DNA from: Bugula neritina
Taxonomy: Eukaryota; Bryozoa; Gymnolaemata; Cheilostomatida; Bugulidae
DNA: 64,000 nt
Assembly: GCA_964035545.1 (NCBI GenBank)
Contig: OZ037770.1
Span: 3,763,662-3,827,661, forward strand
Direction: 5' to 3'
Notes under the pieces: generated by a model
Seen by the model: the letters and a program-made list of their open reading frames with translations, nothing else
Told to the model about the DNA's origin: nothing
The model's database searches: none
Program-made: the position numbers and the translations under genes
In this document: one piece after another, positions 24,328-53,561 of the stretch
Position numbering within the stretch: position 1 is the stretch's first letter
How the letters are laid out: each line of letters starts with the position of its first letter

Positions 24328-27300
24328 TTAGGGGTTGTCCTTTCTGTTAAACCCATCGAAGCCAGGAAAAAGGTAAAGTCTTTTACCATAAGGAAGAGTA
24401 TTCCAGATTACAATCAAATTTCCGTTTCTCTCTGAATCTTCATCTGCATAGAGTTTCTTCACTAGTTTAGTCTGCACCTGTAGAGTAAGTAATGACTAGT
24501 AAGATTGTTTATCAATTCACTGTTATAGCTGAGCCAAGATGTAAATATTGTATCCTACTTGTAACAAATATGAACAGCAAACACTTTGGGAATTGTCTAC
24601 CACCGTCTTATCATATAGCATATAGCAGTACAGTGGCACTAGTTATTAGCAAACTACAAGAACGTATATTGACAAGGAAAAGAAACTATAGAGCTAAAGA
24701 AATTGTAAGAACAAAAGCTACTAGTTAAACTAGAGAAAACTAGGAACGACGTTCTGTTACTAAAAATAGTAGATATCTTTTTTCAAAGGATAAAAGAGTT
24801 CCAACATAAAAATGGACAAAATGATATCATGAGAAATTATATTTTAATTTCTTAAATAAAATTGAAATATCAAAAAAGTTTGTGATTTTTAAACTCACAT
24901 GCTGAAAGAGAGTGTAGAGATCACGGTGACAGGCATGTTTGTAGATTGAAGATACTAGAGCTCTAATCATGGGAGATCCATACTCAGGATGTCTCTTTGA
25001 TGCTAAAATAAAATTGAATGCAGTCAAAATACAGGTCAAGAAAGACCAACTCTAACACGTTTTAGTTTTAGTGGAACATAATTTTAATCTCAAGTTTCTA
25101 GAAAATACTATCCTCATTTTGATGCTGCAATAAAAGTATATGTAGCTCAAATTCTGGTGTAGTCAGAGCAAGTTTAAATTTTTTTTATTTCTGTTTGGTT
25201 TTTAGCATTAGCAAGCAATATGGCTAGTACACGGAAAACCTTACATAACATGGTCAAATTAACTTTGAGAAACAAACTTTTAGATCAACAAAAACTGTAG
25301 CTGCACACCTAACAAACTAATGAATAACTTTCTCCTGCTATACTTACAGCAAACGTTACTCTTTAGAACAAGAAGATCATCTATATCCCGTACAGTTCTA
25401 CACTCTTCTATTCTAGGTTCTGATGGTGAGACTGGTCTAATAGGTCTTATTATGCTGGGTGATTCAGGATATACAATGTCATCATCATCAGGTTCAGGGT
25501 GTGTAGAAGAGACAGCTTCAGTTTCCTCTTCTTGAGCTGCTGCAAGACTTGATCTCTCTGGATTCGCCTCAATGTCTGCTGCAAGGCAAACATTACAAAT
25601 ATCTTAACTTTGTGAGCTGAACAATCTCAAGACACCCAGTTGCTCAAGCATCAAAACTGTGAATCAAGTTAAACTGCATATTGATTAGATGACTGGTCTC
25701 TGACAGAAAGTCTTCACTATTTCAACCATTGAACTAAACGTTCCAGTTTATACTACAAAACAACTACCTCCACTGCTGGCTTCTAGGAAGACAACTTTAG
25801 GTTTTCTCTTCATTCCATCGAAATACAAAGGAGTGAGTAAATCACACAGGTTAGTGAGGTTGACCTTCTTAAGGTCAGTTCCATAGATGCAGTTATCTTC
25901 CCCACCATGAGTCATGACAACCAGCATATGACATCCCAAGTCTTTGTGTATTTCTTTTTTCACCCCAGTCTTCACTGTAGACAGCATTTCCTGAAAGTTT
26001 GAAAATGTGTATATAACCAATGATATAAATTCACTTCACTTTAAGTTGTCAAATGACTGCTATTATAGATTTATGCAGTGCAAACAAAAACTTGTCTCAT
26101 CTATAACCTATCAAAAGACCCAACAGTGAAAAAAACTAACAAGCTCCAGAAAATTTAATGCAGCTTTAGAAAAATTTCAAAAACAATAACCAACATAAAA
26201 AATTCACTTTATTTTAAGTTGTCAAATGACTGTGATTCATGCAATGCAAACAAAACCTTTTCACATGAATCTACCTATCGAAAAACCAAACAGTGAAAAA
26301 AAAACCAACAAGCTCTAGAAATTTTGATGCAGTTGTAGAGAAATTCTAAGAACAATAAAAAAAACATAATTTAATGGATGTAAAAAATAGTTTTATTTTG
26401 TTAAAATATTTTACATGCTTCAAAAATATTTGATTAAAGGACAAAAAACATTATATATGAAAATTTACTTGATGGTCAAATAGTGTTCGCATTACCTTCA
26501 CCATAACAACATACCTCTGCTGTCAGGTCTGTGTGTGTCTCAACATCAAATTTGAGAGATTTCAACATGAGAGACATATTCTCAACATCAGCATCTGAAC
26601 CTTCCCTGCATAAGTCTGGTCTTTCAACAAAGTTCTTGTTGTTTATTATCAGAGCTTTCCCTCTCTCTCTGGTCATACTGAACGCCTGGATATTAATATA
26701 GTTAGAGTATCACATACAGCAGTGACACACATGAGCCAAAGTTGAGAGTACATAGATAGTGGCATGCTTTCAAAATAAATAGTAATAGTTAATTTAGCTC
26801 TCAAGATGCCATATATGGTGCCTCAAATTTCTAGGTCTGACAAAAAGCAGTAAAGCATTCTCTCAATTGCAAAATCAATTTTACATCTTTATGCTAAAAT
26901 TTAAATTTGTTACATTTTAGTTATAACATGAACTAAGCAAACTCTTGTTTAAGACACCAGTTGTCATTTTTCCAACAAAACATGTAAATAGTCCATTAAG
27001 TATGCTGGTTATTGTTACAAAAGTCATTCAGGATATTATTGAGGTTACAAAATAAGAGTTATTACACTGCATGACTATATGTTGTTGAAAATAGCTTATA
27101 TTTAACTTTAAGTTTTTACAAACCAAGCATGTATTTGCAAGGCTGTAGAATTGAATAAGGACAATTTACGGCTCTAATAAAATTTGTTTGCATATTACAC
27201 TTTACTGGCTCAAAATAGACCAATATCTATTTTATGTAAACAAAGTTTCTAAAACCAAACCATCTGCAAAACATTCACTTAGCTTACAGATACAATCGAT

Positions 27301-30300
27301 TGCAGTGGAAAATTATAGTAAAATCAACTTTAAGCTTAAAGGTCACAAAAGAAATCATACTATAAATTGTTTGCCCCACTAAGATTACTCTATGACCATA
27401 TATATATGGAGTTACTGGGAAATCTCAACCCTTCCTCCTAAGCAATTCCTCTGATCTCTTTCTACAATTCCTTCAGCTTTCAGGTTCTCTTAGCCTTTGA
27501 CCTCCTTAGGAGTACTGCTATACTGTTACTATTACTTTTTAATAAAGGTCAAAAGAGCCCACAAAAAATACATTCCCTCTTACTGGAATTCAAATAGTAG
27601 AAGTCTAGCTTTCAGGCGTGCTAGCAAGATAAACATTACACTACAAGGACTAATGAGTAATCTCCACACAACAAATGCCTTCTAATCATGACAACCAATT
27701 GAACCCAAACTAATAAAAACAGAGCAGAAACTATGGCTAAACCAAAACCTACAAGTATAGTAAAATGATAGAATTTGAAAATGTGCATGCATTTAGATCA
27801 ATTGATTTTCAGATCCAATTGAACAACTGCACATGACAATCTAGTAAAAGGAGTTTTTAGAAACCGAAATACTCTACTAGGTGGAGAAAGGAGAGCTGCT
27901 ATTACTTGTGTTCATCAACTAATAAATTCACCTTTTCAGTGTTTGAAAAGAGTTGTTTTATCCTTGAGTTGGTTGTTGGCTTTAGTTCAAGTTGTATTAA
28001 CTTCATGTCTTCCTCATTCTCTTCATCAGGGTACAGATTGTCATCATCTTCAGAGAGATCACTCAGATCATCATCATTTAACTCATCTACAGTCACATCA
28101 TTAGACAGATTATTGTCAACATTTGAAACCATAAACTACATACCTCGCTTAGACAGGAGAAGAAGCAATTAATTTTAAAAGTCACAATCAGATATGATTT
28201 GTAGGGAAATGTAGGGCAAAATTTGCAAAGCCTATAATTTTACCAATACTGCTGGTATAAAAAATGAGCTCTGTCTAAAAAATTCACCATTTGATTTGCT
28301 CTGCTCTCTTCGAACTTTGAGCTCAGAAAGAAAGTTCTTCAATTGATTTGTTTCTGTTTCAGAAAAAGTCTCACCTGAACAATACAGACAGAATTAGTAA
28401 CATCAAAACTAGATGAGAGGCATTAGAAGAATATGAGACATAATCAAAAGCTCATGTATCAAGTTTATATTTTATAAGTCAGCCTAGAAGTTCATTAGAA
28501 TAGCTGTGTAATTTGCTAATGTCCATCTAGCTGCTATTAAAATTCATCAGTGCCTGGAAAAATAGTGGATACGTTTTGATAGTGCAACAAACTATTTAAA
28601 AACATTTGGGCAAAGCAATCAAAAGTGAATCATAGTTGTAAACATACATGGATGAATTAGAGCACTGGGTATCTCTTCATCGTTACACAATATCTTTGAA
28701 GATCCATGACACTTCTTGACATTTGGTGGCAGTTGGTTTTTTAGAGAACGGAAACACCATTTAGGATGCAAAAGCTTTTTAGGGATAGAAACCCCCAGTA
28801 GCATGCAGTGACCACAGATGCAGGCAGTAACTGGTCGACTAGCGGTCCAAGTTACCATGACATGTCTGAGAATGTTGTTTGTGGCTGAAATGAGTTTTTC
28901 CCACATCCTGGAAATGTGAGGACCATCGGATGAAACATAGAGTAAAACTCTTCTAGATTCATAGTCATGTGTCAGCTGCGTGTATGTCTCATCTTGATAG
29001 ACAGTTGCTCCATTTCTCTTCACCTTCATTGTAGCAAACTCTTTAGAAAACAGTTCTAGCAAACCAACTGTCATTTGGTGGTAGACATGCAGCGGTAAAG
29101 CTAGGCCCTTAAACTTTATCTCAGTGTGAAGGACCATATCCTTTGGTGAGGTGTATGACACACCGTGATGTTCCTTAGCGAACTGAGGGATGATGAAGTA
29201 CGGTTCATGGACATCATTTTCCAGAGGGCCAAATAACAAACGGAATGTTCTAAGCAAGCAAATAGCAGTTTCAACATCATGGGAGCTTTTGAATAATGTT
29301 TCCTTTGCGATCAAATATGTTAGAAGAGATTTCATCATCAAGCCTGTTGTTTTGAAGCAATTCACAGACTCTTTAAACTCTTCTGTTTCAATTCTCAACC
29401 CTTCTTCGGAAATGTATGATTGGAAGTGATCAACTCTTTTCTGCCAGATCTCTGGGTCATGATGATACAAGACACATAGTAGTTTGGTAACTTCTGTGAT
29501 CTTGTGAAATATGTATGGTTTGAGTGCATCGATATTTTTATACCAGAGAACTTTACCGCAGTCGTGCATGTATGTGAGAATGGTATCTAGCTGATGTGGC
29601 TCTACTTCAATGCCTTCTTTTGTCAATTCCAACAGAATCAACCAGAAAGAGCTAAATGCTCCGGTCAAAGACAAAACTTTCTCATTCACTTCTTCCCAGA
29701 TCAATGGCAAAAGCTTAACAAAGTGCTGACTACTTAGAAGAAGCGAGCTCTTTATCATTTCAAACTCAGCATACTGGTCATCCTTTCCAATCTCATAAAC
29801 ATCTCCACTGGCAAAAACCTTTCCATTTGATGAATTGAAATGCTGTATTTTCGAGAAATTTTCATCTGAACTTTTCTCTTCATTGAGAACTTCTTTGCAA
29901 AGCTGTTCAGATATGCTAAGAAAGCTTTCTTTAAGCTGTTGAAACTGTTCACTCTGAAACTTATCCTTGTGTGTGAAGACAAGCTTAGGTGGGCCAAGAG
30001 ACGGATGGGCTAGATAGAGGTGAGACATGAAGTCAAAGGCCAACTTTCTGACAGCCTCTTTCTTTGTAAACTCATTTGAAATCTGGTCATACTGCTCCAT
30101 GTTGACTACAATTACCGGTACACAATTCTGTCTCAGTGTTAAATGGTATGTGATATGGTAGACCTCCTGGCCTCCCATATCTATGAGACGAAGAGTTGTA
30201 TCATCCACCTCCACCTCTTCTACATTGAACACTTTTGTGGTCTCATCATACTCTGCATTCGAACTTCTGTCAGTCAGAACTCTCTTCCTGTCAGTGCTTT

Positions 30301-33300
30301 GCAATGTTCGAATTAGACTGGTTTTACCTGCCATGGTGTTCCCCAACACTGCTACTGTAGCAAATGGCAGATTTCTACCAGCACCCTTAGCCAAATCTGT
30401 GTAGTAGTGTCGCACAGCATCTAATCCTCTCCTACAGACTTCTAGTGGAGGAGATGTAAGAGCATTGCAACCATGTATATGCAGTGTATGGAGACGTGTT
30501 AGCTGTAGCATCTCAGGGTTCAAAGATGTCATGGACTCATTGTACAATATATCAAGTGTTTGCAGATTACTCAATGCACACACTGAAGATGGTAGACTGG
30601 TGAACTTATTGTTTGATATGTCTAGTGTCTGCAACTTTTGTAGATTCTGTATCCTAATAATATATTATATATTCACATTATCAGCACATGCTAGAGGTAA
30701 GTGAGATATAATTATAGCTGTCATAAATCTACAATGATAGTAAAACTATTATACACAGAATGTAGATGTATACGACGTGGCAATGGCTAAAGTGACCTTA
30801 TTATATAAAACCCTTTAAAGTAGTATTAGTCTAGAAGTAACCGCCCGAAAAGTGCTCAAAAAATTGGGTTAATACACTTTACTAGGTGGCCACTCAAAAA
30901 AAGTTGTTTCTAGATCAATATTCTGTGTTGATTCTGAATCTACAAACTCTAGAATTCTATCTCTACCCAAACTCAAGTTATTGCAAAAAACAAATCGGCA
31001 TTTTGGATGGGTGATAGAAAAAAATGTGGATTGTGCAAAATAGTATCCAATTTTATCAAGCTATCTTGAAGAAAAAATATTTGTTGAAGTATCAAAAATA
31101 ACTGCCTCTTACTTAGAATTCTATGCTAATACTAAATTTAAAGACTGTAAGAGGCTATCTCAAATTATAACCAAGTTGTTTATATAAACATATATAGTCT
31201 AGAAGTAACCTCCCAAAAAGTGCTCAAAAAGTTGGCTTATTACACTTTACTAAATGGCCACTCAAAAAAAGTTGTTTTTAGATCAAAATTTTGTGCTGAT
31301 TCTGAATCTACAATTTTTAGAATTCTATCTCTACCCAAACTCTAGTTATTGCAAAAAACAAATCGACGTTTTAGATGGGTGATAAAAAGAAATGTAGATT
31401 GTGCAAAATAGTATCCAATTTTATCAAGCTATCTTGAAGAAAAAATATTTGCTGAAATATAAAAAATAATTGCCTCTTACTTAGAATTCTATGCTGATAT
31501 TGAATTTAAAAACTGCAAGACGCTATCTCAAATTAAAAATCAAGTTGTTTATATAAACACATGTGTTTGTTATGAATCGACATATTGCATGCGGCATAAG
31601 CATGCAGAATAATTGTATGACCAAGCTATTTATACAAAAATAAAAGCAAAGTCATGCTGATGTGTGAAAAAACTATATTTATAAAATCATTGTACAAAAT
31701 AAATGTTGAAATGAATAAATATTGAAATATTTTGAGCTCAGCCCAAGTGAACCATTTGCTAGTCTGTCGGTAGCCGTTAAACGTCTGCAAAAATCAACAA
31801 GATTCTGTAAAATTATTTAGAGGAACAGAAGCATGAAAGATTATCAAAATCAAATTGGTTGCAAGCAGCAAAATATATAACAAATGTCTAAAAATAGTGC
31901 TTTATTATAAAAAAGTATTCTCGCCATCATTGTCATTGCCATCAGTCTCATCAGCTCCTTCCCCAATATAGAGCTTCTTTTCAGACAATCCTTACATTGA
32001 CAAACATCAGTGCATGCACTGCATTTGAGATTTCTGACATCCACATCTTGATATGTTGCAGCTGGTCTTACAGGAGCAGTTTAAACTTTGCAATATACAT
32101 GTTCAGGTGCGAAAGCTTGAATCATCTACTTTATATTTATGTTGCCATGATTCTCAACAATCTTTTCATAATGTTCTGGGGTGGTGCATCAATATAAGCT
32201 GTTGTCACTCTTCTTCAAATAGCTGCCTGATAATTTGCTCTTTTTACATGCAAATTTAATTCATCTTTTGTTGGAGGCAAACTCTATTAAGTTATTTTAG
32301 ATGGTGAACGAAATACAGTGTATCATACATTATCTATATATTATATGGATTTCCTGCTCCATAAAGCTTATAGACAAATTGTTCTATTTCAGCCGCTGTA
32401 ATGGCTTACAGCTTAAAATACTTCCCAAGGTGTTCAAAGTTTCCCATACATTATGGATATTTTCTCAAAAAAGAGTAGGCTGTGCGATATCCTTTTTCAT
32501 AAAAAGCACTATAGTCAAATAAAAACCTGTTGAAGCATGAAATCTACTAAGTGCTGCACACAACTACGGTTTGGATTTACTTGCTGCAATGTTGACATCC
32601 AAATATCTAATATGATTATGGTTTCTTCCCAGATAGACGCTATTTTTATTTTGTTACCATATATATTAATATTACCTATATAACTGAGGAATTGATTGCT
32701 AATATGCTAATAGCTATATGTAGTAATACATTAATAATAGACACTATCTTTAATGAATACTTATTAGCAAAATATATTTTCAAACAACAGACAAGATGTA
32801 TAAAATAATATACAAAATTAATAAGTTAATGCAAATCAAAAGAATTTATTTATGTGTTAAATAACAAGCAATTAATCCAAGTTTATTTAAATATGCATAT
32901 GTTTCAATAATATTAAAATAAGTTGCACATGAAAATACATTTTACCAAAATAAATAACTAGCGTCTAAGTAGAAAATTTAGTCTAGCCTCTTTCTGGCAT
33001 GACACCATGATTACCACACCCGTGAAAAAATATAATTGGTAAGAAGGTGATGTTTTGCAAATAGCGAGACTTAGGATGAAAAGTTGAGATTTGATTATTA
33101 TACGTGAAATTATGATGTTTATAAGATATTTTGCATGTAAAAAAGTTTGTGTATCTGCTCCCTCATGATCTAATTGTAAGCATTTGAGTTGTGCTTTCTT
33201 AGGAATTCTACCATGTTTGGTAAAATTGTAGCTGAAAGCAGTTATTTTTGGTATGCATCAACTATAATAACAATATTGTTCTCTAATATATAATATTTTT

Positions 33301-36300
33301 ACTCCATGTTTCACACAAAAATGAACCAGTCTCAAACTCAGCTTATTTTAATTTGGGGATAAGAAATTATTATTTTTGTAACAAATGGCACACATGAAAA
33401 AAGTACATGCCTATGATCTTTGAATGAGGCAGCCCAAGATCATTTTTCTAATGCATGGGTGGTCTAAATATAACCATATAATATATTAAAAATTATAGGA
33501 AAGCTTTAGGGTATTTCTTCTGTAACTATAACTGAGATAAATTGGCTCTAGAGTCATTATATCAAGATAGTATAAAAATATGCATTCTAACCAATAGCAT
33601 TGTTTTAAAAACCAAATTGCTTATGTATAATATATAGTTCAGCTTAAATTTATTGGCAAAGCTCAATTATACATTTTTAAAATATTATCTTCCTGAGTCC
33701 AGATCAACCAGCTCATGCTTCTCATTACTTTTTTGTAAAAGTAGTTATTATAATAAAAATGGTGAAGAAAATCATTATCAGACACAACTTTACTTATAAT
33801 TCGCCTTTTTTATAGCCGATCAATAATAATGTTTGCCTTATAACTAATAAACCCATTCCTTTGCTTGTTTTCGTCCATATAATCCACTTATTTCAGATTT
33901 TTTCACAAGAAAATCACTAGAAATAAACTCAGAGAAGTGAAAAACACATCTATGATTAACTGCAAAAGTTTTTGCTTGTATATAATATAATAAACTAGCT
34001 TCAATAATTTCAAGATAATAAATTAAATATTATTTAATGGATTTGGACAAAGTTGTGGGGAAACAACTCCTGTAACATTTTAAAGAGTTTTGTGACTAAC
34101 CGGGTGGATAGAAAAATTTAAAGTTTTTATAGAAGAAAAGTGAAAAAAGTATCTATAACTATCAGCAAATTTATTTTGCTTATATAAAATAAAATAGCTT
34201 GAATAATTCCGAAATATTTAGCCAATTCACAAAAACATTAGGAGAAAACAACTCCTGATTAATTTTAAAAGTTTAAAGCGTTTTTGTGGCCAACTGGGTG
34301 CACAGAACAGTCTGGAGTTTTCACAGATTAATTAGGACCCTTCAAACTTTGTATTTCTAAAGAAATTGCGTGGCCACCCCTCAAAGTGTAATGAGTGAAA
34401 GATAATTGGAGGTTACTTCTAGACTATATGGGATATAATTGTAATTCTACAATTTTCATTTATTGATATTCTCACAATTTTCAAGTGTTATTTTTGATAT
34501 TTCAAATCATTTACAACACTACAATTACAATGAATTGGTAAAAGATATTAAAAAAGTAATTTAAGTGTCACAATTCATAATGCTTCCGTAGACAATGTTG
34601 TTTTATATAACATGTAGTTGAGTATAACTGCTTAGACTGATATTTTATTAGATATGTGTGGTATATATTATAAATATGTACTATATATAATACAGTTATA
34701 ATCAAACTATATAGAGGCAAAGTTATTATGCATGAGTCTGCATGAAGTATTACAGAAAGTATGCCAGAGAAAAACACAATACTCAGCATTACACTTTAAC
34801 AAACAATGCTAAGAAATACACATTAATAGTTGTTGAACAGAAAGTTCAATTTTTATCAACTTTGCTATATGATGAACTACAAGTTCAGGGTACTATTGCA
34901 CTGTCTTGCAAGGATATTACGTGTGCATTCTTTAAAGGACAGTTTTGTAAATTATAAGGGAAAGCGAATTATTGAACATATTATAGATATGAACAACTTG
35001 TTATGTATATACCATTTCTAGCTTTACAGAGGAGAGGTATGGACACTATAATGTAGTTTAATTGTGTTGACTATTTTGCTAAAAATTGTTTTAAATAGTA
35101 ACTCTATTGTGACACACAAACCTCTCAGGTGGAGTAGATAATTCACACTGCATCATATTCAACTCTTTAAGTGATGTGAGTGATGACACAACTTCTGGTA
35201 CTGTGTTGAGAGGATTGTCTTTTATGTATAGTTTTTCTAACTGAGTTAGCTGACATAGACTATAAACATACAGTGTTTGATATATTTAGTTTCGCCTATT
35301 CAGGATACAATTACTAGAGTTACTATAACTACCACATGATTATGAGGGATAAAAAACTATACTATCAATTTATTCCTTCATAATAGATCTATATAATGTA
35401 ACATACTATCATAACGCTTGACTACTAGGTAAAAGTATAACAGTTTATTATAATAGTACACAAGTATTCATTTTTAAACTCAGTGAATACTACGTAATAA
35501 ACTAGAAATTATTGCTTACTATTAATTACATTTTTATAGCACAACAATATATAATAGCATAAAACCTTAAAATTGCATTATTCCCAAATATTTTAAACCA
35601 TTGCATATATGTGTGTGTAACTTCAAAACATTGCACATCATATTTTTCAATTATACAATGGCATATACCATAATAACACTTGGTAAGCATATATAAAGTT
35701 GTCAAATAATGAATGTTTTAAACAATACAAAATCTGTGACAAACAAACCTCTTAGGTAGAGTAGATAATTCACAGCCTCCCAAATCCAACACTTTAAGTG
35801 ATGTGAATGATGACACAACTTCTGGTACTGTGTTGAGAAGATTATCTCCTATGTATAGTATCTCTAACTGAGTCAGCTGGCACAGACTGTAATATATAGT
35901 ATATGATATACATGTAGTCTGCATTACTATAATATTCTATACTATATTCACATTTTGTTTTCAACCAGATAAAACTATATACAACTCAACTACCAAGCAA
36001 CTTATTGTAGCATTGTACATGCAGAGCATGAGAAGTTAACAGTTTATTATAATAGTATACAAGTATTCAATTATTATATATACTCAGTGTGTGAATACTA
36101 ATCAACTATACAACTGCTTACTATTATTTACATTTTTATAGCACAAGAATATATTATAATGATATACCTCAAATTATGTTATTTTCACAATATTACAGAC
36201 CATATTTTATATAGAATTAATAAATTGCATTTCACATATTTTTCAATCATATAATGACATAACCTAATTGTACTTGGTGAGGAACTATTTTCTGATTTCA

Positions 36301-39300
36301 AGTATTAAATGTTTCAAACAATACAAAAACTGTGACAAACAAACCTCTTAGGGAGAGTAGATAATTCACAGCTACTCATATTCAACTCTTTAAGTGATGT
36401 GAGTGATGACACAACTTCTGGTACTGTGTTGAGAGGATTGTTTCCTATGTATAGTTTCTCTAACTGAGTCAGCTGACACAGACTATAAACATACAGTGTT
36501 TGATATATTTAGTTACACATATTATGCAGAGTACAATTACTAGAGTTACTATAACTAGCACATGATTATGAAGGATAAAAAACTATACTATCAATTTATT
36601 TCTTCATAACAGATCTATATAATGTAACATACTACCATAACGCTTGACTACTAGGTAAAAATATAACAGTTTATTATAATAGTACACAAGTATTTATTTT
36701 TAAACTCAGTGAATACTATAACTAATAAACTAGAAATTATTGCTTACTATTTATTACATTTTCATAGCACAGCAATATATAATGGCATATAACCTTAAAA
36801 TTGTGTTATTCCCACAACATTATAAACTATTGCATATATTATTTGTGTAACTTCAATACATTGCATTTCATATTTTTCAATTATATAATAATTGACATAC
36901 CGTAATAACACTTGGTATAAGCATATAAAGATGTCAATTATTGAAGGTTTCAAACAATAAAAAGAATTAGCAATACAAACCTCTCAGGTAGAGTAGATAA
37001 TTTACAGCCCCCCATTTGCAACTCTTTAAGTAATGTGAATGATGACACAACTTCTGGCACTGTGTTGAGAGGATTATATGCTATGCCTAGCGTCTCTAAC
37101 TGAGTCAGCTGACATAGACTGTAATATAAAGTGTATGATATATATGTAGTCCTCATTACTATAATATTTTATACTATATTCACATTTTGTTTTCAACCAG
37201 GTAAAACTATATACAACTTAGCTACCAAGCATCTTATTGCAGCATTGTACATGCAGAGCATGAGAAGTTAACAGTTTATTATAATAGTATACAAGTATTC
37301 AATTATTATATATACTCAGTGTGTGAATACTAATCAACTCTACAACTGCTTACTATTATTTACATTTTTATAGCACAACAATATATAATGACATACCTTA
37401 AATTACGTTATTTTCACAATATTACAGACCATATTTCATATAGAATTAATAAATTGCATTTCACATGTTTTTCAATCATATAATGACATAACCTAATTAT
37501 ACTTGGTAGGAAACTATTTCATGATTTCAAGTATTAAATGTTTCAAACAATACAAAAACTGTGACAAACAAACCTCTTAGGGAGAGTAGATAATTCACAG
37601 CTACTCATATACAACTCTTTAAGTGATGTGAGTGATGACACAACCTTTGGTACTATCTTGAGAGGATTCCAGCTTATGTCTAGTTTCTCTAACTTAGTCA
37701 GCTTACATAAACTGTAATATAAAGTGTGTAATATATGCATATATTACACACTTTATATTACAGTCTAGACTACATGTAGTCTCTTGTATCATATATTGAC
37801 ATATTCTGTACTCAGCTATAATGTAAAATATGTAGCAAACAATTTTGTTGAGACAGGGTAAGCAGCAAAAAAATGCTATTATGCCATGTTATAGGTGTAA
37901 TGGGTGCCCTGTGTATAATTGAGTGATTAGATGTATATGTATATAGACATCCTGTTTGTTTAATAGATAAGGGCTACTCTACAATGTAATGCTAATATAT
38001 AGTATGATTTATAATAATAAATGGTATAATTTGTTATAGCTAATCTGACACAAATTAGCATGTATTTAATACTCTGAAAATATTTTATTTTTAAGTATAT
38101 GGCTACATATAATATGCTTATATATATTATGTATTGCAAACAAAAACCTTCTGTATAATCCTGCATGTATACATGTACTGCAATAATATTATGTTACTTC
38201 TGTATTCAACTACATAAAACATGTTTTAATTTATGATAAGATGTGTAACACTACAGACAGTTTCCCACTGTCTAGTTTCTACAACTCGTTCAGCTGGTAG
38301 AGATACAATGTTATACATATTACTATAGCTTTATATAGTGCATGATTACATCATGAGTAAGAATAGACTTCAGCATTGACTCAGACACATACATCGTGGG
38401 TGATAATTATCACAACTAAACTCATTTAACATTTACACAGCTATCATAATAGATACTTACTTGTCTAGACTTGCTCTGTCAGTCAGGCCAGAAACACATA
38501 GACACAGGGCTTTACCAGCAACCTCTCCAATGTTGTTTGGAATATTCCCTATCAGTCTAAGATCTGTGATATGATAACTCCCAATTTCATGTTTCACCTC
38601 AGCAGCAGTATATGATTTGGTATTAGCATACATAGCATACTGTACATCCCACCAGTCTACAGGAGGCTGACCAGAATGTCTGAACCAGATTCTCATATTC
38701 TCTGTAACATCATACAGTGACAGTGTGATTATTACACTGTGCTAGCAGGTGATGTCTGTCATTCTGAAACCTGTTACATACATCTATTATTTGCTGTGTG
38801 TAAGACACTACAGCTATATATAGACATGCCTGGCTACTTTAGGTTCATGAAAGTAAAATCTGCAAATTTAAAATGATCTCTAATTCCCTGAAAACAACTG
38901 CTCTGTGTAAAATCTTTGAAATTATGCTGCTTCGGTTTCAATAAAGACCCTTTTAAATAATGTTGACATATATTATACATTGTATAAATATATAAAGACA
39001 TTTTAAAATCGATGAGTTTAAAGCAGACAAAAACACGCTGAATTATCATTTCACATCCAAGCATGCACAAAAAAGGTACAAATAGCAACATCAAGTTAAA
39101 AGTTTCTATATCCGACACTGCATACTTTCTACCCCATGAGTCACACAGCCAATGTTTACAGGATGATTCTAGAAACACATGGACTAGTATATAGTTAGAA
39201 CACTTTCTGATAGTGAGATATATAGAACTGATTATTTGAATGTTACTCATATTTTTACTATGGAAACAAGCAAACCATAGAAAAGTTTTTGAAAACTCTT

Positions 39301-39509
39301 GTCTCAATAGGTAAAACTTTTACTAGTCTTGCTAAAATGAGATTCATACCCATGCAGAGCTGGTTTTGTTCATACCTATATTCAAATAAATGCTAAGTAT
39401 TGTCTAAATACAAATAGTAACAACCAGTAGATAACTTTGGTTGAAAGCAAAACTTGTAACTTGGCTTTTCAACAAAAATTTATTAAAACAACTCACCATC
39501 TGTTGCCAT
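24328..39509 (-). CDS. Roco protein: LRR-Roc-COR with C-terminal caspase-like domain
   Basis: Fifteen exons (minus, high to low): 39509-39497, 38701-38461, 37711-37574, 37118-36981, 36482-36345, 35886-35749, 35259-35122, 30653-28648, 28374-28288, 28086-27906, 26677-26515, 25990-25768, 25578-25348, 25002-24899, 24477-24328. All have GT-AG borders and agreeing phases, giving 4,089 nt (1,362 residues). Order: about 85-residue unknown N-terminus; LRRs of about 23 residues (to ~375); Roc GTPase with P-loop GNTMAGKTS (419-427), switch DMGGQ (473-477) and THKD (542-545); COR (~650-880); acidic linker; caspase p20 from RGKALIINN with catalytic-type His (THGGED, His1155) but EASSG where QACRG is expected, so the nucleophile is Ser1199; p10 containing EYGSPMIRAL and ending LPYGKRLYLFPG. 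The start ATG has a good Kozak context; an ATG in exon 2 (38,696) is an alternative. Likely cytosolic signalling or immune scaffold (inference). Confidence 0.85.
26031..26370. repeat. About 170-bp tandem duplication in the p20 intron
   Basis: The block beginning TTCACTTTA near 26,031 recurs at about 26,205 with drift, sharing AAGTTGTCAAATGACTG, CAACAGTGAAAAA-type and AACAAGCTC words in order. It is non-coding and lies between the caspase exons at 25,990 and 26,515. Confidence 0.7.
30828..34425. mobile_element. 3.6-kb terminal-inverted-repeat element in a Roco intron
   Basis: Left end AGTCTAGAAGTAACC and right end GGTTACTTCTAGACT are inverted. The left end and following 368 bp are duplicated in tandem (30,828 and 31,196). 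The interior is AT-rich and lacks long frames. One minus-strand frame (32,044-31,850) has a cysteine cluster (CSAC, CQCKDC) that might be a zinc-finger relic. No transposase is recognised, so the superfamily is unassigned. It lies between the last LRR exon and the Roc exon. Confidence 0.6.
34568..35100. other. Intronic, no feature recognised
   Basis: AT-rich sequence between the inverted-repeat element and the most 3' of the tandem LRR exons. Only short unconvincing frames are present. Confidence 0.4.
35122..37711 (-). repeat. Tandem array of five 138-bp LRR exons
   Basis: Exons at 37711-37574, 37118-36981, 36482-36345, 35886-35749 and 35259-35122 are all exactly 138 bp and phase 2-2. Each encodes two LRRs of about 23 residues with the pattern LTQLExLxIxxNxLxxVP. 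Intron sequence is duplicated too: introns flanking exons 36,981 and 35,749 match each other, as do those by 36,345 and 35,122, so the copied unit is a two-exon block of about 1.23 kb. Confidence 0.9.
37711..37764. repeat. Perfect 54-bp palindrome at an LRR-exon 3' splice site
   Basis: Two 27-base arms, the left beginning ACTGTAATATAAAGTGTGTA, are exact reverse complements meeting at ATATGCATAT. On the minus strand one arm ends in TTACAG, the acceptor for the exon 37711-37574. Confidence 0.95.
38262..38312 (-). pseudogene. Relic LRR exon
   Basis: The stretch TAGTTTCTACAACTCGTTCA and the following CAGCTGGTAGAG match the acceptor-side part of the tandem LRR exons (TAGTTTCTCTAACTGAGTCA, CAGCTGACATAG). 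The rest of the exon is gone. It lies between exon 2 and the first intact LRR exon. Confidence 0.5.
39030..39135. repeat. Dispersed repeat, copy 1 of 2
   Basis: About 100 bp starting near ACGCTGAATTATCATTT recurs at 40,167-40,266 in the same orientation with small differences. It lies in Roco intron 1. It includes part of a minus-strand frame that is therefore unlikely to be a gene. Confidence 0.7.
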
Positions 39510-42306: not shown

Positions 42307-45300
42307 TCATGCTGTGGCAATAGTCATCAAAAAAACATGTCTGTTCAATGTGGAGTCTTGAGTTGAAATGCCCGAACCGTGTGTTATCAGGTGTTCATCT
42401 GACAACCCTACGATTGCGCACTTTGGACTGATATTTTTCCAGAGCGCTCCACTCAATAAATGTGGTTGGGCAAGACATCCAGCACCCAGTAAGGTCAAAC
42501 GAACTTGAGCTGAAGCTCATCTGACTGTCCACAACACCTAAGATAACTGATCAATCAAACCTCGTCTCCTACTCGTTAGGAAGTCACCCACCATTTACGG
42601 AGGAGACGTCCTCCAAGTCTCCTATCGGCGCCTTCTATTGATTCTCCTGCCAAACTTCATGGGCTGTACTTATCCTCTCTATCAGTTTCTCCATATACGT
42701 ATGTAGTGGGTACTTGAGCACTGGAACATGGTATATCAGATGCGCGGGAACCCTGGTTTCTCTGGCAAGCATCAAAAGGTTCAGGGGCTTCTGTGTGCTA
42801 AAGTGGGGCATGCTGCGGTAGGCCCGCATGATTTGTGGCAGCACCGCATTCAATCCGTTTGACTCCTGCTTAAGTTTAGGCTCATGAGGGCATCACGCGA
42901 TATCCTGTTGTTGAGTTCCACAATTCCGTTCACTTGCAGATGATATAAATTCTTTGCTCCAGTTCACCCCCTTTATCTAGCAGAGGTAACCCATTAGTTG
43001 GGACTGAAACAGGGTACCCTGGTTTGTATGAATATTTTCTGGTAACCTAAAATAACAAAACACATGTAGGTCCAGAGCCTTAGCCATTGTGGGGGCTGAC
43101 GTGTCTTGAATAGCCTGTGCGTCTGCCCACTGGCTGAAGTGGTCTGTGAGAACCAGTACCCAGGTGTTATCTCTGTCAAATAACAGCATAGGACCGACTA
43201 AGTTTACCCCCGATTTTTGCCACAGTCGACAGGCATACAGCTGCGTTAACTAGTGTAGCCAACTGAGGACCTGCTCCATGAGTCATTGGAAAGTTGCCGG
43301 GGCAGCCAATTATCCACATGACAGTACTCTCCAGTTTCACAGCCTATCAATCATGGGCAATGCATGCTGCCTGTTGCGTAGGGTCAGAACAGAGAGGTAT
43401 TTGCCAGCACTCACTCAGCAAATCAAAGTACTCAAGTACTTGGTTCCTGCAAGGTATCCAAAAACTCATCTATCCGATGGAGGGAGTTAAAATCCTGGAT
43501 AGTGACACTGTTGAGGCTGCGGTAGTTTACGCAGATCTTCTAACTGCCACCCTTCTTTTTGACTAAAACTACTGGTGAGCTCTACGCAGTATGGGCTGGC
43601 TCAATCAGGTCCCGGTCAAAAAGGCTTAGCACCTGTCGACTCACCTCATTCTCCCTGCACTGTCGTTGAGTTGGCGGTTTTATGAGCACACTGTTTGCTG
43701 CCAAGGATATCTTGTGGCAGATGATTTTGGTCAACCCTGTGTCATTGCCTCTACAGTTGAATATGCTATTGTACTCCAGGAGTAGTTCAGCCAGTTCTTG
43801 GCACTCCGAGCAATTTCTACAGCTTCCACAGTGTCGTTCATACAGGTAAGCAACATACTCCAGGATTGCTCCCCGTCTGTTCCCTGGGCGCTGGTCACTT
43901 TCTCCGATGCCAGCCCCACATCGGCCTCTTGGAAAAAGTAGTACCTCCCCACAATTGCACCAGTCAGCAGTTTGATTGGTTTTGTGAAAGGGTTGATGCA
44001 TTGCCCGAAAAGCTCCCCGACAACAGTCTAGCCGATTCAGGTTGTTTGTCAGTTGAATCTTCCTATACCTCTCTTCCACCACTTCAAGCTCCGTAATCAT
44101 CCTCCAGTTGACTGTTATGGTACCGTGCAGTCCTGTACTACCTAAACTCTGCTCACCAAAGGCTTGCCAAATTTGTTGACAAAGATGAGTTTTTTCCCAG
44201 CCGTCACCACCGCCAACATTTTAAAATTCATGTGACACTAGTGTTTTTTCAGGAATGGAATGCCCAAGATGGCATCCTCCTTCAAGTAATTAAAGATGAA
44301 GGTCTTGTAGATCACCTGATCATAGACTGGTGTAGGTAGTGTAATGATGCCGTAGAACGGAAAGCCTGACCAGCCCACCTATGTCACCTTGTGCACCTAC
44401 ATATGGCTCAATGCTAGCCCTCTCTCAAGCGCCAAGAGTGTTAAAGAGATGCCGACTCAACATTTTTATAGTGGACCTAATATCCAGTAGGAAGGCTGCA
44501 GCTTTACCTGCAATATTATGGAGTAGGAAGTAGCTGCCACCGTACGGCTGAGTGCTCCTGAAGCAGTCAGTGTCTGGCAGAGACACTTCTTGAGTCCTTA
44601 CGACGGGCCTCCTTTTCGACTTCACGACATTGGAGGCTTTCCGAGGTTTAGAGCGTAGCTTGGAGTCTTTTTCCGCAACTTTGTTGGGTAACTACCGGAA
44701 CCGGTTGCTGAGTGGCTAGGCAGAAGGTTCTGGTAGACTTTGCGGTTTTCTAGATCTTTGTAGTGCGTGCCATCCTAAGTCAAGAGACCCAATCCCAGTG
44801 TTGAGTGACCAGACAGGAAGTTTGTGCAGACCTCTCAGCCCCCGAGATCTTTGAGGTGTCTGCCATTTGGCATCGCCAGGCTCCATTGGAATCCTTCTAA
44901 ATGAGGCTGACTCTGGACCCACAGTTGGCGGAAGTTACCGCAGGTATCCGGTGTTTAGAAGCACCTTCTTTCACTGTTGGGCATTCTTACTGCATGTGTC
45001 CATTTGTCCCACACTCCCAACCAGTGAGTGGTGGCGACCTGATGGGGTCGTTCCAGGACCAGGGCAAATGCCGATCAGCTTGAGTCTGAAGGCCCTTCAT
45101 CGTATTCATCAACATAAGGAATTTTGTAGGGCCAGCGACACCGTGGTATCAGCCACGACTTGAAGTGCTGGCGTGGTGGGTCGGACCGCCTCCTGTCCTG
45201 TTTCTTTAGTTTGGTTAGCAGTTAATCTTTCCACTTGGTAATAGGCTTTTCCCATCTTTACCGCTACTTCAATAGAGTCGACGTTAGATGCCAGTAAGTA

Positions 45301-49178: not shown

Positions 49179-49465
49179 TGATGCATACTTATAGATAGTC
49201 TTACAATGGCATAACCTGACTAGCAGCTTAGTGCTGTAAAATATTTGTTTACCATTACATACACTCATATTCTTATTTGTGGTTTGTCATTCATCCTTAT
49301 GTAAACTGTTATTTTATTATTATTACCACATGAATAGTTGTCATTGCATTTACTTATTCCTGTTTTACTTGTTAGCCAGTTGCCTGCTAGTGCTTTATTA
49401 ATACAGACATACACTACACAGCTACTTCAATTTCATATTACCACAGCGAATCACAAAACATAACA
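49179..49465 (+). repeat. 5' LTR of young Gypsy element
   Basis: 287 bp from TGATGCATACTTATAG to AAAACATAACA, with TG...CA ends. Confidence 0.95.
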
Positions 49466-49467
49466 GT

Positions 49468-49484
49468 TGGTGTCAGAAGTGGGA
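49468..49484 (+). other. Primer binding site, tRNA-Leu type
   Basis: TGGTGTCAGAAGTGGGA lies 2 bp after the 5' LTR and is complementary to the 3' end of animal tRNA-Leu species (from memory of that tRNA family). Confidence 0.75.
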
Positions 49485-49500
49485 TACCATAGCTGATAAA

Positions 49501-50145
49501 ATGGAGGAACAGCTAGCTGGACTGATAGCTGCAATGCAAGCGCAACAGAAGCTTCAGATGGAACAATTTAATACAATGCTTGGACATTTAGCTAAAACTA
49601 GTAACACACAACCTGTTGCTACAACAGTGTCCGTCACTATTCCTAGATTTGAAATTTATGACAGAGAGAAGGAGTCCTGGGCTCAATATTTACAACGTCT
49701 TAAGCAACACTTCACTGTTTACCAGGTAACAGATGCAACTCAACAGCGAGCTTGCCTGCTCTCATGGGTTGGCTCAGAAACATATGAACTTCTCACCAAA
49801 CTTTTTGGACAAGAGGACATAACTTCTAAATCATTAAATGAGCTCACTGCAAAACTTAGTGAACACTTTGTGGAGAAGAAGCATGTGCAGGCAGCTAGAT
49901 ACGAATTCTATAATTGCAAGATGAAGCCAGAACAATCATACTCAGATTGGGCAGCTGACCTACGTGGAATTGCTCGCAACTGCAATTTTATATGCAAGAA
50001 AACCGGCTGTGGTGAAGCCTATGTTGATGAACAAATAAGAGATGTCATCATTAAAGAAACACCACACGCTGATGTACGCAGGCTCTGTTTACTAGAAACC
50101 GATCCCAGTCTAGACGATGTTCTAAAAAAGCTAATACTTTTATAA
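49501..50145 (+). CDS. gag: Gypsy Gag (capsid-like) protein
   Basis: 214 residues with retrotransposon-gag character: an N-terminal glutamine-rich helix, then a segment with KESWAQYLQRLKQHF and the YEFYNCKMKPEQSYSDWAADL region typical of capsid-like Gag of this clade. The zinc knuckle is not in this frame. It lies just downstream in the pol frame, so it is made only after frameshifting. The frame ends shortly after an AAAAAAG heptamer at 50,124. Confidence 0.85.
   Translation: MEEQLAGLIAAMQAQQKLQMEQFNTMLGHLAKTSNTQPVATTVSVTIPRFEIYDREKESWAQYLQRLKQHFTVYQVTDATQQRACLLSWVGSETYELLTKLFGQEDITSKSLNELTAKLSEHFVEKKHVQAARYEFYNCKMKPEQSYSDWAADLRGIARNCNFICKKTGCGEAYVDEQIRDVIIKETPHADVRRLCLLETDPSLDDVLKKLILL
50124..50130 (+). 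promoter_or_regulatory. Predicted -1 ribosomal frameshift heptamer
   Basis: In the gag frame the site reads A AAA AAG, a canonical X XXY YYZ slippery sequence. A -1 shift here enters the pol frame, which is open from before this point through 53,561. The gag stop follows 13 bp after the heptamer. No stimulatory structure was assessed. Confidence 0.65.
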
Positions 50146-50189
50146 CTACTGCTGAGACAGATAAAGTACTCAAAGGTGAACTGGCAGAG

Positions 50190-53100
50190 GTGACTACGCA
50201 CCAGATGTCTGCCTCCTATAAAGACAGACGCAAACCCACAAAACATTATGACAGCAGGGACAGCCCAGATTCTGGTAAGATAACTAAACTTAAATCTTGC
50301 CCGCAATGTTTTACACAGCATGACAGGAAACAATGCCCTCATAGAAATAAAAAATGTAATATGTGTCAGCGCATAGGACACATTAGTTCCGTGTGCCAAT
50401 CAAAACCCACTAATGCATCCAATTCAAGCAATGTAATTGATGAAACTACCAGCACCATTTACCAAGTGATTGAAAAAGCTAATAGCATGTATGAGCGTAA
50501 AGGTAAACAAATATGGCTGAATGCTTTGGTCAATGGAAAACAAGCTAAATTTCAATGGGATACAGGAGCCACTTGCTCAATGGTTGGTTTAGTAGGCTAT
50601 AAACAACTAGGGTCTCCCCCCTGTGAGCCTACTGACACTACACTACATGCATATGGAAATTCCTCGCTAAAGGTCAAGGGTCAATGTTTTGTTGATGTAC
50701 AACTGGCGCAAACTGTAAAAGAAAAACTAAGACTTCTAGTTGTTGATTCAAATGAAGGATCAAACCTTTTTGGCCTTGACTGGAGTGACGCTTTTGGTCT
50801 TTCACAGCAAGGGTTATCCGCTATAGTCCAAACAATACATACTAATTCCAAGAAACCCACCAATGACTATCTCCCGACATCAGACATTACAACCATTAAA
50901 AAACGCTACTCAGATGTATTCAAACCAGGCATTGGACACTGCAAATCACTAAAAGTTTCAATCCACACTAAACCAGATGCACAACCAGCTTTCTCTAAAC
51001 CTCGTAATATACCATATTCAACCCGACAGGCTACTAGGGCTGAGCTTGATCGATTAGTTTCAGAAGGCGTTCTCGAGCAAATAAATTTTAGTGACTGGGC
51101 AGCACCTATTGTGGTAGTTTCAAAGCCGTCAGGAAAAGTTCGAGTTTGTGGTGATTTTAAGCAGCTAAACCAGCGTATATCAATAGATCAGCACCCATTA
51201 CCAAAACTTGATGACTTGATGGAAAAACTGCGAGGTGGTGTTTACTTTTCAAAACTGGACCTGGCTGATGCATACCTTCAGTTAGAGCTAGATGACGAAG
51301 CCAAGAAATTGTGTGTGATTAATACGCCATTTGGTTTATATAGATACAATCGAATGTGTTTTGGCATCGCATCAAGTCCTGCACAATTTCAGCGATGCAT
51401 GGACTCTCTCACCGTAGAGCTTCCTGGTGTAGCTGCATACCTTGATGACCTCATCATCACTGGTAGCACAGTAGATGAACATTGGGCAAACCTTAACAGG
51501 CTGCTGGCAAAGTTACAAGAGCATGGTTTTCGCTTAAGATTGGACAAATGCGAATTTTTTAAAACTTCAGTGGAGTACCTGGGCCATGTCATTGACAAAG
51601 AAGGCAAGAGGCCCTCAGAGTCATCCATCGCTGCACTAAAACAACTGCCTATACCTCAAGACATTCAACAATTGAAAGCTTTTCTTGGAAAAATCACCTA
51701 CTATGGCCGATTTATATCAAATCTGGCTGACAAAGCAGCTCCCTTGTACAATCTCCTCAAAGATGGAGTTCCTTTCGCATGGACAAATGGTTGCCAACAA
51801 GCATTTACAGAGCTTAAGGAAGACGTCATTAATGCTACTAATCTGTCACACTACGACGAGTCACAAACCCTTGTGCTTGCAACTGATGCTTCCTCTTATG
51901 GCGTTGGTGCAGTTCTCTCACAACAAGATGCTGACGGTAATGAAATTCCTATTGCCTACAGCTCCAAAACTCTGACAGAGACCCAAAAGAAGTATTCTCA
52001 GATTGAACGAGAGGCACTTTCAATAATTTACGGTCTAACAAAATTTTGTCAATACCTTTATGGCCGAAAATTTATCTTAATAACAGACCATGAGCCTCTT
52101 GTGAGTATTTTCTCACCGCAGAAAAATATCCCTTCTACAACAGCTCAACGACTCCAGCGTTGGGCATTAACACTAAAGGCTTTCCAGTATGACATTGCCT
52201 ACAAAAAGACTTCTAAGCATGGTAATGCGGATGCCCTTTCACGGCTACCGCTAGGTATTGATGAGCAATTTGATGCTGCAGAGCATCAAGAAGATATGGA
52301 AGTATCACACACAATACGGGAAGAAATTCATGCATTTCCATTAGATTCAATGCAGATAAAAAGAGCAACCCAGAATGATGATACTCTTCAGAAAGTTGTC
52401 ACATGGATTCATGAGGGCTGGCCTAACAACAAACCTGCTGAGCCAGAGTTACAACTACTCTGGGCACAAAGGGAGTCTCTTGTCCTTCATGATAATATCG
52501 TACTCCTACAAAGAGACACAAACTCAAGAGTGGTAGTACCAAAAGCCCTGCAAACTAAAGTTCTAGAAACCCTGCACTCATCTCACTGGGGTGTAGTTAA
52601 AGTTAAACAGCTGGCTAGGCGCTATGTATGGTGGAGCTCTTTGAATGCAGACATTGAAAAACTCACAAAAGCTTGCGACGTTTGTAAACAACTCTCGGCT
52701 GCACCAACACAGTGCTTTACTGAATGGCCTAAAACTGAACACCCATGGGAACGTATTCATCTTGATTTTGCTGGGCCATTCAAAGACAAAATGTGGCTCA
52801 TATGCATTGATGCCCACTCCAAGTTTCCGTACATGGGGAAAATGGAAATTGGACAAACATCTGCCAAGCAGACTATTCAAGTCCTTAAAGACATTTTCAG
52901 CCTGGAGGGACTTCCTAACACTGTGGTCACTGATAATGGCCCACAATTCACCTCAAGTGATTTTGAGGCATTTTGTAAACAGCATGGCATCAGCCATATC
53001 ACATCTCCACCACATCATCCGCCATCAAATGGTGAGGCTGAACGTTTCGTACAGACTTTCAAAAAATCAGTTGAAAAGAATTGTGTGGGAGGAGTGCCTC

Positions 53101-53561
53101 TCACAGACAGTGTTAGACTAACACTTGCTACATACAGATCTCTGCCACACCCTGCTCTAGAATGGAAAACACCAGCTGAAGTCTTACATGGCCGTCAACC
53201 ACGCTGCCTGCTGTCTCTAATTAACCCCTCCAACAATCACAATTACCAAACAAAAAGTAACAACAACACATCATCCCAGTTTGCAGTCAATTCACTCATA
53301 TATGCCCGTAATTACTCATCTGGACCAAAGTGGGTGCCCGGTAAAATAATTCGTAGAGTTGGCAACACAATATTCTTAGTAGACACTGATAGAGGAATCT
53401 GGAAGAGACATTGTAACCAACTGCAAATTCGACTTGCAACTGAAAATATGCCAAATGATGAGAGCATAGCTGCTGAGCCAGCATCTGAGCATAGCCAGTA
53501 TCCCACCACTAGACGATATCCACAACGCATAAGAAAAGCTCCTGAAAGATATCAGCCATGA
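50190..53561 (+). CDS. pol: Gypsy Pol: zinc knuckle, protease, RT, RNase H, integrase
   Basis: 1,123 residues from the first ATG, though the frame is open upstream into gag. Domains in order: CCHC knuckle (CNMCQRIGHISSVC, ~68-81); aspartic protease with DTGAT (~124); reverse transcriptase with YLDD (~417); RNase H beginning TDASSYGVGAVLS (~565); integrase with an HHCC zinc-binding segment (ACDVCKQ) and core motifs LDFAGPF, TDNGPQF and GEAERFVQ holding the D-D-E residues. No internal stop, so potentially active. The C-terminus is close to the polypurine tract and 3' LTR, leaving no room for an env gene. Confidence 0.95.
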   Translation: MTTHQMSASYKDRRKPTKHYDSRDSPDSGKITKLKSCPQCFTQHDRKQCPHRNKKCNMCQRIGHISSVCQSKPTNASNSSNVIDETTSTIYQVIEKANSMYERKGKQIWLNALVNGKQAKFQWDTGATCSMVGLVGYKQLGSPPCEPTDTTLHAYGNSSLKVKGQCFVDVQLAQTVKEKLRLLVVDSNEGSNLFGLDWSDAFGLSQQGLSAIVQTIHTNSKKPTNDYLPTSDITTIKKRYSDVFKPGIGHCKSLKVSIHTKPDAQPAFSKPRNIPYSTRQATRAELDRLVSEGVLEQINFSDWAAPIVVVSKPSGKVRVCGDFKQLNQRISIDQHPLPKLDDLMEKLRGGVYFSKLDLADAYLQLELDDEAKKLCVINTPFGLYRYNRMCFGIASSPAQFQRCMDSLTVELPGVAAYLDDLIITGSTVDEHWANLNRLLAKLQEHGFRLRLDKCEFFKTSVEYLGHVIDKEGKRPSESSIAALKQLPIPQDIQQLKAFLGKITYYGRFISNLADKAAPLYNLLKDGVPFAWTNGCQQAFTELKEDVINATNLSHYDESQTLVLATDASSYGVGAVLSQQDADGNEIPIAYSSKTLTETQKKYSQIEREALSIIYGLTKFCQYLYGRKFILITDHEPLVSIFSPQKNIPSTTAQRLQRWALTLKAFQYDIAYKKTSKHGNADALSRLPLGIDEQFDAAEHQEDMEVSHTIREEIHAFPLDSMQIKRATQNDDTLQKVVTWIHEGWPNNKPAEPELQLLWAQRESLVLHDNIVLLQRDTNSRVVVPKALQTKVLETLHSSHWGVVKVKQLARRYVWWSSLNADIEKLTKACDVCKQLSAAPTQCFTEWPKTEHPWERIHLDFAGPFKDKMWLICIDAHSKFPYMGKMEIGQTSAKQTIQVLKDIFSLEGLPNTVVTDNGPQFTSSDFEAFCKQHGISHITSPPHHPPSNGEAERFVQTFKKSVEKNCVGGVPLTDSVRLTLATYRSLPHPALEWKTPAEVLHGRQPRCLLSLINPSNNHNYQTKSNNNTSSQFAVNSLIYARNYSSGPKWVPGKIIRRVGNTIFLVDTDRGIWKRHCNQLQIRLATENMPNDESIAAEPASEHSQYPTTRRYPQRIRKAPERYQP

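Follow-up and report, generated by a model that had tools for sequence, protein, structure and literature searches.

Locus and gene model

The window analysed here is a stretch of 64,000 nucleotides on chromosome 6 of Bugula neritina (positions 3,763,662-3,827,661), a member of the Bryozoa and not a sponge, as an earlier note on this DNA had supposed. On its minus strand, between 39509 and 24328, a reading by splice sites and phase joined 15 exons in phase, with GT/AG at 14 of 14 introns and a coding length of 4,071 nt (1,356 codons plus stop). In the predicted 1,356-aa protein, leucine-rich repeats (LRRs) are followed by Roc, COR, a linker and the caspase parts p20 and p10, and the sequence thus reads as a Roco-caspase fusion in one gene. 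The exons are as follows:

Exon 1, 39497..39509 (-): start codon (MATD); splice sites and phase only
Exon 2, 38461..38701 (-): N-terminal segment ahead of the LRRs; splice sites and phase only
Exon 3, 37574..37711 (-): LRR exon, two 23-aa repeats, 138 nt, phase 2-2
Exon 4, 36981..37118 (-): LRR exon, 138 nt, phase 2-2
Exon 5, 36345..36482 (-): LRR exon, 138 nt, phase 2-2
Exon 6, 35749..35886 (-): LRR exon, 138 nt, phase 2-2
Exon 7, 35122..35259 (-): LRR exon, 138 nt, phase 2-2
Exon 8, 28648..30653 (-): last LRRs, Roc GTPase and COR, 2,006 nt, aa 315-983; Pfam Roc, fold, genomic copies, splice donor
Exon 9, 28288..28374 (-): linker, phase 1-1; matched in loci L017 (64%) and L041 (77%)
Exon 10, 27932..28086 (-): acidic linker; phase, part matches Watersipora P0001
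Exon 11, 26515..26685 (-): caspase p20, first half; Pfam and caspase alignment
Exon 12, 25768..25990 (-): second half of caspase p20; catalytic His present (MTHGGE), nucleophile Ser (LEASSG, codon AGC) in place of Cys
Exon 13, 25348..25578 (-): p20-p10 inter-subunit linker; matched only in close C6/C7 copies
Exon 14, 24899..25002 (-): caspase p10, first part (KRHPEYGS); Pfam, locus and Watersipora matches
Exon 15, 24328..24477 (-): caspase p10 end (TLPYGKRLYLFPG) and stop; phase, locus and Watersipora matches

For exons 1 and 2 and for the exact number of LRR exons, the basis is splice sites and phase only. The earlier note had described 15 exons in phase over 4,089 nt; the exons and their phases stand, whereas the length was 18 nt off at one junction. 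That junction, into p20, had been placed at 27906/26677, which was not adopted here since it would insert six residues relative to the alignment with the Watersipora subatra protein P0001 (see below). Instead, the last linker donor follows 27932 and p20 is entered through an acceptor at 26685, and P0001 spans this junction with one single-residue gap (RIKQLFSNTEKAFSMTRERG vs RVQNLFCSSE-VYRMTRVRG). The caspase exons do follow the COR exon through two linker exons (9 and 10) with agreeing phases, as claimed. Linker exon 10 was matched in many B. neritina loci, and exon 9 found no match in most other loci read besides L017 and L041.

Elsewhere in the window, overlapping frames of 247 and 1,162 aa at 49402-53561 (+) contain, by eye, gag-like, zinc-knuckle, protease, reverse transcriptase and integrase-like stretches, and represent a putative Ty3/gypsy-like retrotransposon. 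A 212-aa open frame lies at 43582-44220 (-).

The LRR and Roc-COR part

In Pfam scans of the conceptual protein, a search that had been proposed before, Roc (31.7 bits, cut-off 27, aa 415-508) and Peptidase_C14 exceeded their cut-offs but COR-A did not (13.8 bits, cut-off 35.3); several LRR families were also over cut-off in the N-terminal part. The Roc sequence contains GNTMAGKT, DMGGQE and THKD, which we take to be its GTPase motifs. As the COR-A score was under the cut-off, the COR call rests on the predicted fold. A prediction for exon 8 from its single sequence was useless (pLDDT 35), and one made with 48 relatives was used instead (pLDDT 87.9). This model matches LRRK1/2 and the C. tepidum Roco; the closest solved folds are LRRK1/LRRK2 (8e05, 8fo9, 7lht), and CtRoco 6hlu matches with an E of 1.4e-21 over 708 alignment columns. 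In the modelled fold, therefore, COR follows Roc.

Neither a kinase domain nor a DED or CARD prodomain was detected in the window protein in a Pfam scan to E 0.1. NCBIfam returned only LRR and small-GTPase resemblances, all below cut-off, and the bacterial effector names in that scan are explained by common LRRs. When the LRR exons of the window gene were compared with each other, pN/pS was 0.89 (10 pairs), a value that, as a different measure, can be contrasted only roughly with the caspase dN/dS given below. By eye, the differences among these exons fall mostly at variable repeat positions.

The caspase domain

Peptidase_C14 was recognized with 110 bits (cut-off 21.4, E 1.7e-31) at aa 1072-1314, over profile positions 1-213 of 233, and both subunits of a caspase, p20 and p10, are accordingly predicted in the window protein. 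Among solved structures, p20 comes closest to a reconstructed ancestral effector caspase (E 1.2e-22); CED-3 and further animal caspases rank next. The domain had been called a complete caspase; this holds for p20, p10 and the catalytic His, but the Cys of QACRG is Ser in the window copy (LEASSG). As read from the sequence, the catalytic Cys-His pair is missing and the window copy cannot perform cysteine chemistry.

The caspase S1 pocket is formed by two Arg and one Gln. At these positions, the p20 Arg aligns with caspases, the p10 Arg does so only within a stretch of non-significant score, and Gln is Glu. This Gln-to-Glu change in QACxG, beside the nucleophile, recurs in the majority of the 45 copies whose exon 12 was read, so that even Cys-bearing copies are no more than putative proteases.

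The gene family in the B. neritina genome

The genome searched comprised 215,847,546 bases in 295 contigs, slightly under the published tzBugNeri2.1 assembly (GCA_964035545.1), which the available part of its description puts at 216,009,554 bases in 320 contigs (PMC11480708). Exon 8 gave at least 67 matching rows, corresponding to 66 copies as two rows represent one copy; with 66 of 159 candidates scored, this count is a lower bound. The earlier note had missed this family of at least 66 members and its signs of exon exchange between copies.

In 65 of the 66 Roc-COR copies, a same-strand match to caspase exon 12 was located less than 15 kb downstream, at a distance of 978-11,587 bp (median 1,602); the three pairs beyond 7 kb may be looser pairings. 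Within the same 15 kb, a caspase exon was found upstream in 2/66 copies and on the opposite strand in 0/66. The contrast between 65/66 and 0/66 excludes chance adjacency of Roc-COR and caspase. Another five Roc-COR exons, 44-93% identical, were read over their whole length, and each lies upstream of a same-strand caspase. In short flanking sequences, a caspase came after the end of COR in thirteen locus ids, and the linker was matched in 12 of the 13; because L004 overlaps L030, the ids stand for 12 places. The copies listed as L027 and L029 recur as L043 and L044. Of 26 locus rows, 25 retain the splice donor after COR (T|GT), equivalent to 22 different copies; the 26th row, L045, is unaligned at the COR end.

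Exon 12 itself had 129 matches in the genome. Sixty of them were at least 53% identical, 48 with a scored Roc-COR upstream, and at least two of the 12 unpaired ones do have a Roc-COR outside the scored list (C4:21233087, which is L045, and C6:12868090, which is L010). The remaining 69 were distant (<47% identity), with 17 paired to a Roc-COR and 52 unpaired, and the latter may include ordinary caspases. In 16 of the 66 copies, mostly on C1, Roc-COR is 62-67% identical to that of the window gene and caspase exon 12 just 35-42%; one of them, L007, keeps Cys (HACSGS). A near Roc-COR is here combined with another class of caspase, which suggests an exchange of the whole effector.

Other observations were made on C1. 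Two more distant family members among the unpaired exon-12 matches, L008 and L009 (32.87 and 32.94 Mb), have a COR of approximately 32% identity and a caspase p20 of 34-36%, with the motif VVACRSG. The Roc-COR exon at C1:33884509-33886503 lies inside a 2,363-aa open frame, which greatly exceeds those of the other copies listed. Finally, a Hox-type homeodomain query found four Hox-like homeoboxes (best 92% identity) on one strand within 60 kb at C1:22636455-22695504, a set that would be unexpected in a sponge.

Nucleophile variants and selection on the caspase exons

Of the 129 matches to exon 12, 45 were read at the nucleophile position, namely the best 30 and 15 more from C6 and C7 (59-72% identical). 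Cys was present in 35 (22 TGC, 13 TGT) and Ser in 10 (8 AGC, 2 TCC). Since AGC and TCC are each one base away from TGC and occur on different exon-12 types, Ser likely arose at least twice.

Nei-Gojobori estimates over exons 11, 12, 14 and 15, with exon 13 left out, gave a dN/dS of 0.10-0.36 for Ser copies (13 pairs) and 0.32-0.38 for Cys copies (3 pairs); these pairs lack independence, and the share of divergence that postdates the loss of Cys is obscured by exchange among copies. With values well under 1, the Ser-type caspase domain appears to be still conserved. Stop codons in exon 8 were found in 2/10 Ser copies vs 1/33 Cys copies (Fisher p 0.13), or in 3/10 (p 0.034) when the copy C6:3523992 is also counted, which has two Roc-COR matches in one 912-aa open frame and is split, not broken. 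Given these stops in their Roc-COR exons, part of the Ser copies may be genes in decay.

Probable exchange of exon 12 between copies

On C6 and C7, exon 12 occurs in two forms: type A, as in the window copy, and type B, which is three residues shorter (SLKPKP/SLKRKP). Exon 11 in the same copies is mostly 89-98% identical, with 80 and 86% in two. The two types were mapped onto a tree built from the Roc-COR of 13 rows, of which 11 were labelled, drawn from 31 C6/C7 copies of at least 71% identity. At least four changes, on starred branches, were needed, a number reached or undercut in 372 of 500 label shuffles, and the types are therefore no more clustered on the tree than shuffled labels. This mismatch points to an exchange of exon 12 between copies, by gene conversion or older shuffling.

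Relatives in other species

A predicted protein of another bryozoan, W. subatra P0001 ('MFHAS1 homolog'), is 31% identical to the window protein over 1,231 alignment columns. The alignment takes in the linker and the caspase, whose nucleophile motif in P0001 is QACSG, with Cys kept. Protein searches yielded three matches among 3,423 candidates for region 380-720, 47 for alignment A1 (best 7,994 candidates scored) and none for region 760-1180. The only named animal relatives in the region 380-720 and A1 searches were two W. subatra predictions, which does not show that the architecture is bryozoan-only. Beyond P0001, P0003 and P0048, the A1 matches are 44 proteins of 382-735 aa whose source tags are jgi, lgn or ena; with roughly 36-62% of the query covered, they are silent on caspase presence and source animal. 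No report of a Roco-caspase protein was found among the papers listed by searches of a full-text literature collection, and no paper treating Roco together with Peptidase C14 was found in that collection, outside which lie most subscription papers and all preprints.

Proposed function and alternative explanations

Our reading of the architecture, family size, conserved order, occurrence in another bryozoan species, Cys and Ser variants and mismatch between exon 12 and the Roc-COR tree, all observed in sequence, is that the window gene probably belongs to a large bryozoan family of single-chain receptors made up of an LRR sensor, a Roc-COR switch, an acidic linker and a caspase, in which Roc-COR pairing sets caspase proximity and Ser copies act as non-cleaving partners. 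The family most likely represents immune receptors that act inside the cell and have expanded in number; the argument for immunity is its expansion and its LRR variability. The LRRs would bind a ligand, and the nucleotide state would alter Roc-COR pairing, which, across a flexible acidic linker in the same chain, would bring the caspase domains together or apart. Initiator caspases are comparably activated by adaptor-driven proximity. Cys-bearing members might then cleave after Asp and start cell death or an immune response, and the Ser-type window copy most likely serves as a non-cleaving partner, be it decoy, inhibitor or scaffold, pairing with Cys-bearing relatives via Roc-COR or the caspase dimer face.

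Two adjoining genes, a Roco and a caspase held together by co-duplication, would be compatible with W. subatra Roco model P0002, which is without a caspase, with a possible start codon (AFSM) inside exon 11 and with the three of 65 pairs more than 7 kb apart. We nevertheless regard separate genes as very unlikely, in view of the order and strand kept in 65/66 copies on seven chromosomes, the COR exon donor kept in 22 copies (25/26 rows), the matches to linker exon 10 in many loci and the prediction of P0001 as one protein in another species. Together with the 15 in-phase exons, the paralogues and P0001 bear out the single gene of LRR-Roc-COR-caspase order claimed before.

Even with a real fusion, the window copy and the other Ser copies could be decaying pseudo-enzymes without a role, as the loss of the catalytic Cys, the Roc-COR stops in 2/10 of them and the split match in a third would allow. 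This deserves some weight but is unlikely, as the frame of the window gene is open through all 15 exons, the dN/dS of Ser copies is well under 1 and the replacement is Ser both times (AGC, TCC). The caspase fold might also be an activity-neutral scaffold used for binding only, Cys copies included. The Q-to-E change beside the nucleophile in most copies read fits such a role, as does a parallel in bacterial vWA-MoxR ternary systems, where about 70% of effector-position caspases are said, in the available part of the source, to be catalytically inactive (PMC7159879); with Cys kept in 35/45 copies, and together with Q in P0001, we find this improbable.

Under the preferred receptor reading, a protease fold right behind COR would be a new output for a Roco switch. 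It would offer a direct test of Roc-COR pairing as a general control of effector proximity, still debated for LRRK2, and add a large and varied LRR receptor-like family to the Bryozoa, whose immunity is, to our knowledge, little described. More tentatively, LRR-RocCOR-caspase proteins might constitute a further Roco class, equipping bryozoans with 65 or more different intracellular receptors, with exon-12 exchange moving catalytic and non-catalytic caspase versions between near-identical receptors as a genomic on/off switch for killing, perhaps for defence or between-colony recognition.

Comparison with known systems

The window protein has the order LRR, Roc, COR in common with Roco group 1 (CtRoco, MbRoco2 and MFHAS1/MASL1, the last of which we take to be a member), but adds a caspase behind COR and has a COR-A below the Pfam cut-off. 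In the part of a Roco review available, three groups are distinguished by their added domains (none, a C-terminal kinase or, for DAPK1, a death domain together with a kinase at the N-terminus) and the dimerization of Roco proteins is described as dependent on COR and nucleotide; a C-terminal caspase falls outside these groups and is, as the earlier note held, non-standard (PMC6337361). LRRK1/LRRK2 of group 2 are the nearest solved folds of the LRR-Roc-COR exon, but the position of their kinase is taken by a protease fold. With animal caspases (C14A; caspase-3/6/7, CED-3), p20 aligns, including what are presumably the catalytic His and the p20 S1-pocket Arg, and p10 is recognized by Pfam; in contrast, Roc-COR stands in place of a DED/CARD prodomain and the nucleophile of the window copy is Ser.

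The bryozoan family can also be likened to the ROCO genes of brown algae, in which the shuffled exons reportedly code for LRRs. These genes undergo exon shuffling and have been proposed as candidate immune receptors, and a word count for that study gives 0 occurrences of 'caspase' (PMC11378527). The same architecture is found in W. subatra P0001, known only as a predicted protein, which differs from the window copy in keeping Cys where the latter has Ser.
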